From Rheinheimera sp. MM224 (GTDB lineage: Bacteria; Pseudomonadota; Gammaproteobacteria; Enterobacterales; Alteromonadaceae): a DNA stretch of 64,000 nt. The notes below the pieces were generated by a model, which saw nothing but the letters and a program-made list of their open reading frames with translations, searched no databases and was not told where the DNA came from. Positions within the stretch are counted from its first letter, which is position 1. Each line of letters opens with the position of its first letter. The stretch lies in the NCBI RefSeq assembly GCF_947090785.1, contig NZ_OX352320.1, forward strand, positions 3,957,001 through 4,021,000. Reading direction: 5' to 3'. Shown in pieces: positions 23,713 to 26,411 of this stretch. A program made the translations under genes and the position numbers.

Positions 23713-23784
<72 letters not shown>

Positions 23785-23789
<5 letters not shown>

Positions 23790-23835
23790 CAAAACATCAA
23801 AACCACCTTTTCAGGTGGTTTTTGTGTTTTTGGCA
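23785..23835 (+). repeat. left 51-bp direct repeat (candidate attL)
   Basis: A perfect 51-base repeat shared with 26361-26411. It starts with the last five bases of tRNA-Arg (CACCA) and covers the tRNA terminator hairpin (ACCACC/GGTGGT with T run). Two exact copies of a tRNA end 2.6 kb apart are the usual footprint of site-specific integration. Confidence 0.9.
23799..23830 (+). terminator. terminator of tRNA-Arg
   Basis: AAAACCACC and GGTGGTTTTT form a stem with a short loop and are followed by T-rich sequence. The same hairpin recurs in the right repeat. Confidence 0.85.
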
Positions 23836-23965
23836 CCCTGTCCGATTTGAACGCGCCCGTTCGACAAAAACGTCTGGAACGTTTTTGGACAGCTTTAGCT
23901 GGCCTGCAAGGCAAGCTCCCCCGAGGATTGGGTGAACACTCCTAGCAGTTGCGCGATGTAAATCA

Positions 23966-23996
23966 GTGCCTTAGCTGAAAAGCGAGGCCTTTTTTA
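23966..23996 (+). terminator. hairpin with GAAA tetraloop and T run
   Basis: GCCT..GCT-GAAA-AGC.AGGC folds into a bulged stem closed by a GAAA tetraloop and is followed by T residues. It lies just inside the left end of the island and points to the right. Confidence 0.6.
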
Positions 23997-24012
23997 TGCC
24001 TAGAAGAAAATT

Positions 24013-24043
24013 TTATAGCAGATTTATAGCATGTCTTATAGCT
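24013..24043 (+). repeat. three phased TTATAGC direct repeats
   Basis: TTATAGC occurs at 24013, 24024 and 24036, that is, spaced 11 and 12 bases, near the left end of the island. Short direct repeats at helical spacing beside an attachment site are typical of integrase arm-type or excisionase sites. Confidence 0.45.
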
Positions 24044-24081
24044 GATACTCTTGGTTGATTATCCTCTACCTCTGCAAGCGT

Positions 24082-25913
24082 TTAATTGTGCATCTGCAGC
24101 CATTTGATTAAAAGTTCGTCTTTAGTAATAACGTTACCATTAATAATTTGCTTAGTTTTTGATTCTCTCTCTTTCAGCTTAACGCCTAGAGACGGATCTA
24201 ATTCAATCAGTATCTGCTCTGCTTGAAATTGATATCTGTTAAATGCTTCTTCTGGCGAGGAAATTGTAGGTGCGCTATCCATCATATAAACCATCGAATT
24301 TAATGTACTTCTCAGATAATGCTCTAAATTAACTATAAGCATTTCTAGCCTGTCTGGAGTTGCAGCATTGTGAATAATGGCGTTTCGAGTGCGATATATC
24401 CTATGAATTTGCATTTCTACTTTTGCTCTATGCTTTTGAATTTTTAGGCCAAGTTTGTAAGGTGTTTGACATAATTCAATTAGCTGACTGAATCGATATT
24501 TCGCATATGGGTGCTGGGCTAAACGACTATTCAACTCGTCGACTGTCGCTTGTGACTTTAAAGTGCAGTAGAGTTCCGCTAGGTTTAGCGTTCTTAGGTC
24601 AACCTCCAGCCCATCGATCAGGAATGGCTCCCACTGAAGTGCTTTTGCTACACCTCTTAAAGCAAATAATTGTTTAACTGGGTAGTCTAACCCTATGCAA
24701 GGCAAAACCGAGTGTATTACGTGAGCATCGTGAGTAAGGCTCTCATTAGAAACCCCCAAAGTTAGAGACTCTAAAGCTGACCAGAACGCTGTAAAACGAC
24801 TCTCAGGCGTTCCATCTGTCAATACTCCATTTCTAAAGAACCTAAAGGCTGAACTGACCTTACGAACTGTATGTATCTCAGCATTTTTATACAACTTGGA
24901 CATAGTTCTTATATATAGAGAAAATTCATCCAAGCTGAGACGGTCAGATGCATTAACAAGTTGTTTATCGAAATGTGGCAGTATTTTAGTCTGTTCGTTA
25001 CCATTTTCTATGGTAAATGCTCGGTATTTTTTTCTATTTTAATCTCGTCTCGTCCCATCATGTATGCAATAACATCCAGCGCTCCGTATAGCTCTGACTC
25101 CGCAATTTGGCGAGCGGCACTGAATGAAATTGCTGTAACGACTATGTCTACTGACACCATGTTATTTTTATCAGATGGGATTTGTTCGAATCTGCAATTT
25201 TTGAACTCAAATGACTGTCCAGCACCTTCAATAAGTGAATATAAGCGTTCACTGATTAGTCTCAGAGTGATGGTTATTTGACGCTCTCCTGCTGTAATCT
25301 TCTGAGTGAAAGACTGGAATTGATTTTGAAATGTATCAGTTCTCTCTCGAAGATAGTTCCGTGATAGCAAATAGCATTCAGAAATCGGCATTCCCAGTGT
25401 CGAAAGTGTGCTTATAAGTAAATTAGTTGTACTGTAAATTTCACCCAAAGTATCAGTGTCGTGCTTCTCACCGCCAAGGAGTCTGTCACGTAAAGCATCA
25501 ATTGCTATTGCTCTATAATTAGAGAGGATTTTTTCTTTAAGCTGAGTGAGAAGACTACTAATCAAAAAGCGTTTTTTTTCGATAGGGCTACTATTGTGAT
25601 CTTTAAGATCTTTATTGTCACAGAGGGATATTATTTGGCTTGTCAGCTCCTTAAACCCTGCATCAGTAAAGCACAAATCAGACTTAAGAATTTCTAGCAG
25701 TTCTGTCATCACATGACTGCGCTTATCTGCAGCCTTGTGTTTATCGCCATGAGTATATAGTTCAAGTAGTTCAATGGTTGCGTTTAAAGCGTTATTATAA
25801 GTAACTCGGTCAGAATCTATGCTATGTAAGCTAGTTAAGCTTGACCAGCATTCGATAAAAAACAGCTGCTGAGTTTGAAGACCTTCTCTTTGGATTCTGG
25901 AATCTAACCGCAT
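24082..25913 (-). pseudogene. HEPN (ApeA-like) protein gene, split by a frameshift at an A7 tract
   Basis: Two frames belong together. The first runs from ATG 25913 (AGGA just upstream) and stops at 25008 after 301 residues. The second is open from about 25025 to the stop at 24082. An extra A in, or a -1 shift on, the A7 run at 25027-25033 would give one protein of about 610 residues with no other stop between. The N-terminal 300 residues are mostly helical and not recognised. The C-terminal part begins SSAFRFFRNG...RFTAFWSALESLT and contains RTRNAIIHN, an RxxxxH motif, as in ApeA-like HEPN ribonucleases, many of which act in anti-phage abortive infection. The gene may be a broken copy, phase-variable, or expressed through slippage; all remain open. 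It is alone in the island apart from the divergent RNA candidate. Confidence 0.75.
25027..25033 (-). other. A7 slippage tract joining the two HEPN frames
   Basis: On the coding strand the codons read GAA AAA AAT ACC; a -1 shift gives TAC CGA GCA, which continues into the HEPN frame. A -1 shift on A-AAA-AAT or insertion of one A restores the full protein, whereas loss of one A leads to a quick stop. Confidence 0.65.
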
Positions 25914-25915
25914 TC

Positions 25916-25952
25916 TTGTCCTACACTCGAATTCTGTTATACTGTTTAACAG
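25916..25952 (+). promoter_or_regulatory. divergent promoter region with palindrome CTGTTTAACAG
   Basis: Plus-strand promoter: TTGTCC at 25916-25921, 16-base spacer, TG-extended TATACT at 25938-25943. On the minus strand TATAAC at 25936-25941 could be the -10 box of the HEPN gene. An 11-base palindrome CTGTTTAACAG (25942-25952) overlaps the start region, so one protein could silence both directions. Confidence 0.45.
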
Positions 25953-26095
25953 ATTAACTTATTAATACAGTGATTTCCCAATAAATCACTGTTACTACAG
26001 AAAAAAACGGTCTCCCCTTCTGACTGAGGCTAGTCCCGAGAAGGATCGAGACCAACCATTTAAGGAGGAGCTTTAAGAAAGCTCCTCCTTTTTTT
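25950..26095 (+). ncRNA. structured small RNA candidate divergent from the HEPN gene
   Basis: About 145 bases without a credible reading frame but with three strong hairpins in a row: ACAGTGATTT/AAATCACTGT (25967-25992, ten perfect pairs); a long bulged stem at 26009-26053 made of GGTCTC/GAGACC, CCTTCT/AGAAGG and GACT/AGTC around the loop GAGGCT; and a terminator with thirteen perfect pairs plus T run (26062-26095). A promoter with TG-extended -10 lies just upstream. The arrangement HEPN protein plus neighbouring structured RNA has a precedent in AbiF-type systems, where the RNA restrains the protein. Function here is inferred only. Confidence 0.5.
26062..26095 (+). terminator. strong intrinsic terminator of the RNA candidate
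   Basis: AAGGAGGAGCTTT pairs perfectly with AAAGCTCCTCCTT (13 pairs, three-base loop) and runs into seven T residues. Only the plus-strand orientation has the T run. Confidence 0.9.
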
Positions 26096-26360
26096 ATTTG
26101 CAATTCCCACTCAAGCTAATCCATCTCTTAATTAGTGCACTTATTTACAGAACTCCAAGTGAAGGCGAAAAAGCACAAGCTGTATACTCCAACCGCCATT
26201 GGCGTAGGCGTGTAATGATAGTTTGCCCTGCATACGAAATACCTTTTAGCTTTAGGGTAATCAGTCTAACTTCTCTTCTAGATGAGTAGCAGCTTCAGGA
26301 ACGTTTGTGAACGTTTTCTCTTACGGAGACGACCCGAAGCGCCGAGTACTCCGGCTGCGT
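26096..26360. other. right end of island, no gene recognised
   Basis: No convincing coding frame or RNA fold. GAACGTTT occurs twice at 26299 and 26309, ten bases apart, and the same octamer lies in an inverted repeat (CAAAAACGT/ACGTTTTTG, 23865-23887) at the left end, possibly recombination-related sites. Confidence 0.4.
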
Positions 26361-26411
26361 CACCACAAAACATCAAAACCACCTTTTCAGGTGGTTTTTG
26401 TGTTTTTGGCA
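26361..26411 (+). repeat. right 51-bp direct repeat (candidate attR)
   Basis: Exact second copy of 23785-23835, including CACCA and the terminator hairpin. In this position the hairpin also lies downstream of hemH, to which it gives a minus-strand terminator stem. Confidence 0.9.

Follow-up and report, generated by a model that had tools for sequence, protein, structure and literature searches.

ApeA, a family of anti-phage proteins with a HEPN motif, was reportedly first presented as a one-gene defence. RNA control of a HEPN protein has been described in another family, AbiF of C. difficile being neutralised through direct binding by the structured RNA RCd22, and Cas13 has been suggested to descend from the AbiF line, both according to PMC12373285. 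Here we describe a small structured RNA gene divergent from apeA in a 64,000-nucleotide (nt) stretch of Rheinheimera sp. MM224 (contig NZ_OX352320.1, positions 3,957,001 to 4,021,000; hereafter the window), a segment which is very probably the gene of a dedicated RNA partner of ApeA. Both ApeA and the idea of an RNA-controlled HEPN protein are already known; what the sequence comparisons suggest to be new is an RNA partner beside ApeA of the Ec4 type. An earlier note on this DNA had proposed an RNA-HEPN pair of a possibly new kind, pointing to AbiF-type HEPN proteins as a known parallel. The pair itself is strongly supported by its recurrence at 19/19 loci, by covariation and by DNA common to Rheinheimera hassiensis over the gene and the RNA alone. 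Its protein is not AbiF-like, and the pair differs in kind from AbiF because the protein is Ec4-type ApeA. Among the publications that literature searches listed, none appeared to join ApeA with a noncoding RNA, though one ApeA preprint outside their reach might do so.

Far from being absent beside other copies of the HEPN gene, a possibility raised in the earlier note, the same RNA is observed on the divergent strand upstream of apeA in all Ec4-type loci having upstream sequence, from several genera (the window, L003-L007, L009-L015, L021-L023, L027, L028 and L034). A common layout is present in each of the 19, in which a 5' hairpin is followed by the linker GAAAAAAACGG, exact or differing at a single base, then by a stem in two parts that carries a conserved loop, and last by a terminator. 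Excluded before counting were L008 (contig stops at the gene), L070 (gene truncated at its start), L026 and L035 (only fragments of the gene, whose upstream region is missing), L032 (the gene is split and no RNA was observed) and L043; in L021 and L025 the start codon was placed by homology instead of record annotation. Identical RNA cores occur in L004 and L023, in L003, L027 and L028, and in the window and L010. The 5' hairpin forms in 14/14 distinct RNAs of alignment A2, with mostly different sequence, and in each of the 17 Ec4-type loci that were scanned for promoters, terminators and the loop motif described below (the 19 without L023 and L027) the RNA measures 134-146 nt and ends in a terminator.

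Compensatory changes in homologues, which the earlier note had proposed to look for, were found in the two core stems. Covariation was scored on these stems and a GG/CC mini-helix, as the 5' hairpin and terminator do not align. In A2, 93.8% of cells in these elements are paired, with 28 double-change cells compared with 9.1 in shuffles and a covariation score of 0.426 compared with 0.240, values as high being observed in 0/500 shuffles in either case. When partners were slid by 1-3 columns as a control, the score decreased to 0.06-0.19 and double changes were also strongly lower. Double changes occur at 4/6 pairs of the outer stem (97.5% of cells paired) and at 3/6 pairs of the inner stem (88.1%), and the core-only alignment A3 gave a similar picture, with 90.8% of cells paired and 24 double-change cells versus 8.7 (0/500). 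The 16-pair bulged stem of the earlier note stands as a stem, refined to 6+6 pairs plus an invariant GG/CC mini-helix supported by covariation, whereas the fold of the single sequence has apical GACUG/UAGUC pairs that not every relative shares. The asymmetric loop (GNCNGNGG...UCCCG; columns G-C-G-GG...UCCCG) is invariant at most positions and varies less than the stems do. A near-constant loop on stems whose bases change while pairing is maintained, in an RNA associated with a single protein gene, is the pattern expected of a protein-bound RNA.

In the window, the plus strand of 25950-26095 is predicted to fold at -51.9 kcal/mol, whereas 200 dinucleotide shuffles averaged -26.0 (standard deviation 3.5) and none was as good (z -7.35). 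The ten-pair hairpin and 13-pair terminator seen earlier in this segment were recovered, as was the TG-extended promoter preceding it, with a -35 hexamer TTGTCC (25916-25921), a spacer of 16 and a -10 hexamer TATACT (25938-25943; 9/12 matches), and the RNA is indeed without a reading frame, no complete ATG, GTG or TTG frame being found within it. Taken alone the promoter is little proof, because 6.5 sites scoring like it are expected by chance in the scanned 3.5 kb. Its position is constant, the -35 hexamer being separated from the apeA start codon by 2 nt in the window and by 1-5 nt in each of the 17 scanned loci of the Ec4 type. Although the 5' hairpin and the terminator are each unremarkable alone, a chance structure or mere terminator without RNA function is extremely improbable in view of the fold z value, a covariation score that no shuffle reached and the constant promoter position; covariation combined with conservation across genera makes a random structure very unlikely. 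Rfam at gathering level over the window matched only a tRNA, with no family for this RNA, and no abiF family is among the 15 matches that 25700-26400 gave at E up to 10. An ATTAAC-YTATT-like element, common to many Ec4-type loci, is located at window 25953-25962, just inside the RNA start, and has no obvious fit to an apeA promoter on the opposite strand.

The HEPN protein of the pair is, as judged by sequence, Ec4-type ApeA. A profile search of PDB sequences with the family alignment A1 detected Ec4ApeA (entry 9hxm) at E 3.8e-260 over positions 1-608, while Ec2, Ec3 and Ec1 ApeA are distant from the family (E 8e-23 to 1.7e-15). The R, N and H of the HEPN motif R-N-x-x-x-H are invariant in 21/21 rows of A1, the motif reading RNAIIH in the C-terminal part of the window gene. 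The family is detected weakly or not at all by Pfam, NCBIfam and PADLOC; Pfam at E up to 1 gave no family for either window part, neither PF18739 nor Abi_2, and three relatives gave nothing or weak unrelated matches below cut-off. The window N-part is 87% identical to residues 1-295, and the C-part 92% identical to residues 295-609, of one 609-amino acid (aa) Rheinheimera hassiensis protein, so that the two frames are two parts of one gene. The reading frame is not intact, the break near residue 295 being one that may reflect mutation or assembly error, and the two parts were searched separately with the break left unmended. A single frame of at least 593 aa is present in 16/18 other Ec4-type loci, the gene being split in L023 and shortened in L027. 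In three Ec4-type loci, L023, L027 and the window, apeA is split or shortened, with the RNA gene retained.

Covariance model R1, built from 14 RNA cores, matched 18/18 Ec4-type loci searched at E 1.7e-8 or better, four loci outside model building having cores identical to used ones; L007 was left out of this search, its RNA being seen otherwise. The window match of 70 bits at 26000-26053 involves a core that is itself one of the 14. Across 38 sources nothing besides Ec4-type loci was obtained below E 0.11, and in 394 genomes of the order, searched with strict filters, the sole match was the window's own genome, with no orphan copy. When 394 equally drawn genomes were searched with the PADLOC ApeA model, two were detected, the window's own and G778, the latter with an Ec3-like gene. 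The family is rare in whole genomes, occurring in 2/147 relatives and 3/369 genomes of the class, own genome included, and tblastn against plasmid records gave 115 records with a relative of the N-part and 117 with a relative of the C-part. Among E. coli genomes, 2/5,426 carry the Enterobacter-type gene, on plasmids, and the RNA is found in these two as well; this RNA type is present as one copy each in 71 plasmid records (30 of the 71 listed), and lies 20-22 nt from apeA in the five plasmids compared (NZ_LC556211, NC_011281, NZ_CP042489, NZ_CP017451 and NZ_CP138193). A small RNA of the ordinary base-pairing kind, acting on other mRNAs and placed beside apeA by coincidence, would share its size, its Rho-independent terminator and its single-stranded A-rich linker, features which are, as general knowledge, common in such RNAs. 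This explanation is nevertheless quite improbable, as the RNA accompanies apeA in different genera and on plasmids through common inheritance, has no copy without apeA in the 394 genomes searched with strict filters, is represented by a single R1 copy in its own genome, where the next match is only at E 0.07, and bears a mini-helix in its conserved loop. In the enterobacterial plasmid loci L004, L005, L022, L023 and L035, the anti-phage gene ppl follows apeA on the opposite strand (the apeA of L035 is a fragment).

An apparent RNA gene on the divergent strand is also observed at seven distant ApeA genes, L024 (Paraburkholderia), L031 (Burkholderia cenocepacia), L025 (Pelobacter), L002 (Rheinheimera), L033 (Planococcus), L017 and L018. 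Those at L002, L018, L025 and L033 are weak candidates, a promoter and hairpins being judged by eye, and a scripted scan found no terminator in these four. A loop motif, stem-N(1-5)-CNG(N)GG-N(3-9)-CCCG-stem, recurs in L017, L024 and L031, each time preceded by two bases GN and carried on quite different stems. With the same strict stem rule it was found in 11/17 Ec4-type loci and 0/9 RNA-less controls (L039, with a PF18739 match below cut-off, was left out), and was matched by 60 (L017), 13 (L024) and 17 (L031) of 2,000 shuffles. The ApeA of L024 and that of L031 are 59% identical, and the closing stem, as read from the sequences, differs between the two with pairing kept. In a tree of 20 proteins, rooted at the midpoint only and having several long branches, Ec4-like proteins (15 rows) split from Ec2-like proteins (5 rows) with support of 100/99; a divergent RNA or candidate accompanies 15/15 Ec4-like rows, while the Ec2-like rows have two weak candidates and three without. 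No such RNA was seen beside L030 (Ec3-like), and no divergent RNA at four loci that match HEPN_Apea, one of these below cut-off. Ten Ec2/Ec3 loci are on viral contigs, the next divergent gene starting within approximately 130 nt. Ec2- and Ec3-type ApeA (L040-L042, L044-L046, L069 and L071-L073) apparently occupy the same slot of related prophages, beside what we take to be a P2-type baseplate gene, and the HEPN_Apea proteins of L036 and L037, of about 465 aa, resemble integron gene cassettes, with attC-like flanks identified by eye.

The mechanism that we propose, with slightly less than even confidence in the whole, is that a trans-acting RNA is the fixed partner of Ec4-type ApeA, binds it and holds its HEPN ribonuclease (RNase) inactive. 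The promoter whose -35 hexamer nearly touches the apeA start codon would make an RNA of 140-150 nt, and the conserved asymmetric loop, presented on the bulged stem, would be bound by ApeA. Under the RNA the HEPN ribonuclease would stay inactive, or primed within an assembly that is itself inactive; once phage infection removed the RNA or overrode it by way of the activating ligand, ApeA would cleave RNA and stop the cell. The sequence comparisons establish that the RNA gene is conserved, how it is structured, that it keeps its place and is inherited along with apeA, and that the Ec2/Ec3 loci lack it; transcription, binding, the loop as the site of binding, inhibition and release are inferred. 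Inhibition by binding is likeliest, and a sensor or cofactor second, because of the stem and loop pattern, the lack of an antisense signal and the analogy with AbiF.

Action on expression, in which apeA mRNA is kept scarce by abutting divergent transcription or by the RNA, with no binding to the protein, has to be considered since the two transcription units probably interfere, the -35 hexamer being 1-5 nt from the apeA start codon in 17/17 loci. We regard this as distinctly unlikely, as interference alone requires no conserved loop on covarying stems farther downstream. In addition, at 13 loci the RNA was predicted to pair with the start region of apeA no more strongly than shuffled RNA does (z -1.2 to 1.24), which speaks against an antisense regulator of apeA. 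The RNA could also be a sensor or activating cofactor, a structural subunit of ApeA through which phage nucleic acid, phage protein or nucleotide fragments are recognised, as with multicopy single-stranded DNA (msDNA) in retrons or CRISPR RNA in Cas13. The invariant loop, carried on stems that change freely, is consistent with a recognition element, and the type IX retron, according to PMC13405049, holds a HEPN dimer inside an RNA/DNA complex. On balance this role appears unlikely, as the module holds no reverse transcriptase-sized open reading frame (ORF) or repeat array. Furthermore, ApeA is reportedly activated by deoxydinucleotides, as stated in a preprint title, and such activation would need no RNA sensor. 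The threshold for activation by deoxydinucleotides could itself be set by an RNA.

Several observations weigh against this inhibitory mechanism. With respect to covariation, pairs with a double change number 7/14 in both A2 and A3, a value reached by 8/500 and 73/500 shuffles, respectively; further pair types are not above shuffles, 498/500 (A2) and 479/500 (A3) being as high, and single inner-stem pairs fail in up to five A3 sequences. R1 matches 0/7 of the distant RNA candidates, whose link is one of position, promoter or terminator, with the loop motif, which was defined after these sequences had been seen, in 3/7 only. No such RNA was seen beside Ec2ApeA, in the six of seven loci inspected, or beside Ec3ApeA, in the four of five inspected, and control of ApeA therefore needs no RNA in general. 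As the window apeA is frame-broken, the pair may be inactive here. Finally, the Ec4ApeA structure in the PDB indicates that at least one Ec4 protein can be produced, possibly with the RNA present. Its depositors label Ec4ApeA a 'putative' antiviral protein, a word not used for the other three ApeA, and this would fit, as a small hint, Ec4ApeA having been tried without its RNA.

Even chances are given to a broader proposal, that a whole ApeA branch, with a range running from Gammaproteobacteria to Burkholderiales and perhaps beyond, is a defence gated by RNA, in which an RNA with an invariant loop, as an assembly subunit, sets the firing of the HEPN RNase; the RNA family and its pairing with the effector would be undescribed, and Ec2 and Ec3 would have lost the RNA or never had it. 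If one branch needs the RNA, assays of Ec4-type apeA without the upstream 200 bases would have covered half a system, and cells with apeA alone could suffer from an unguarded RNase. A second HEPN family would then join the RNA-controlled ones, of which AbiF is an example, with a bearing on the origin of RNA-guided HEPN nucleases. A ready-made comparison is offered by the RNA with its loop on one side and, on the other, the Ec2/Ec3 branch, which lacks such an RNA.

The mobile island of the earlier note is strongly supported as a small mobile module. In the 8 kb compared, R. hassiensis DNA is common to the window only over 23959-26176, that is, the gene and the RNA (85.7%). Relative to G004, the closest matching site found, the window contains an extra stretch with a G+C content of 0.39, compared with 0.47-0.48 in the flanks, and apeA and the RNA seem, from these sequence comparisons, to move as one unit. 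The ORF list of this stretch (23943-26343) holds no recognisable gene besides apeA, and therefore no recognisable integrase. The gap separating tRNA-Arg(CCG) from the next gene, presumably ferrochelatase, varies (window 23713-23835 and 26352-26411; L063, L064 and L065), and the tRNA 3' end plus terminator is repeated in that gap in several relatives, even without the apeA module. Coordinates of the features are collected in Table 1.

Table 1. Features of the apeA-RNA module, in window coordinates.
Feature	Position	Strand	Basis and remarks
Stretch extra relative to the matching site of G004	23943..26343		apeA and RNA are the sole recognisable genes
apeA (Ec4 type), C-terminal part, HEPN motif RNAIIH	24082..25038	-	Open frame; tblastn relatives
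apeA (Ec4 type), N-terminal part	25008..25913	-	ORF; ends at frame break near residue 295
TG-extended sigma-70 type promoter of the RNA	25916..25943	+	Promoter scan
Small structured RNA gene	25950..26095	+	~146 nt, start inferred from promoter; fold z, covariation, R1 match
5' hairpin, ten pairs	25967..25992	+	Predicted fold; sequence varies among relatives, hairpin predicted in each
Conserved linker GAAAAAAACGG	26000..26010	+	Conservation in relatives; last two bases start the outer stem
Bulged stem (whole)	26009..26053	+	Predicted fold
Outer stem, 5' side	26009..26014	+	Pairs with 26048..26053 (3' side)
Inner stem, 5' side	26016..26021	+	Pairs with 26039..26044 (3' side)
Asymmetric loop GACTGAGGCTAGTCCCG with GG/CC mini-helix	26022..26038	+	Most positions invariant; proposed protein-binding site
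Rho-independent terminator	26062..26095	+	13 pairs (26062-26090); run of seven T, two of these in the stem

Compared with known systems, the locus shares with AbiF/AbiD and the abiF RNA a HEPN gene paired with a structured, terminator-ended RNA (~100-130 nt; PMC12373285). It differs in that the protein is of another family, the window parts having no Abi_2 Pfam match, in that the RNA is divergent from the gene whereas the abiF RNA is upstream on the same strand, and in having one stem-loop core rather than two repeated motifs, with no Rfam match. With type III toxin-antitoxin systems (ToxIN, CptIN and TenpIN) the likeness is an RNase effector for which restraint by a bound RNA is proposed; in contrast, no direct repeat of at least 14 nt was found inside 25950-26095, the RNA is divergent instead of being in the effector operon, and the effector has a HEPN motif. 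The type IX retron (retron-Kva2; PMC13405049) is similar in having a HEPN effector under control of a partner nucleic acid, whereas the module described here has no second gene of any size besides apeA, and so no reverse transcriptase. Proteins of Pfam HEPN_Apea (PF18739) share the name and the HEPN superfamily, but the three above cut-off have open frames of 465-506 codons with no divergent RNA seen. The ApeA anti-phage system itself (Ec4ApeA, 9hxm; Ec1-Ec3ApeA, 9hxn, 9hxb-9hxi and 9hxj) is matched over the full length of Ec4ApeA, and, while Ec2 and Ec3 loci show no RNA, the difference at this locus is the RNA partner.
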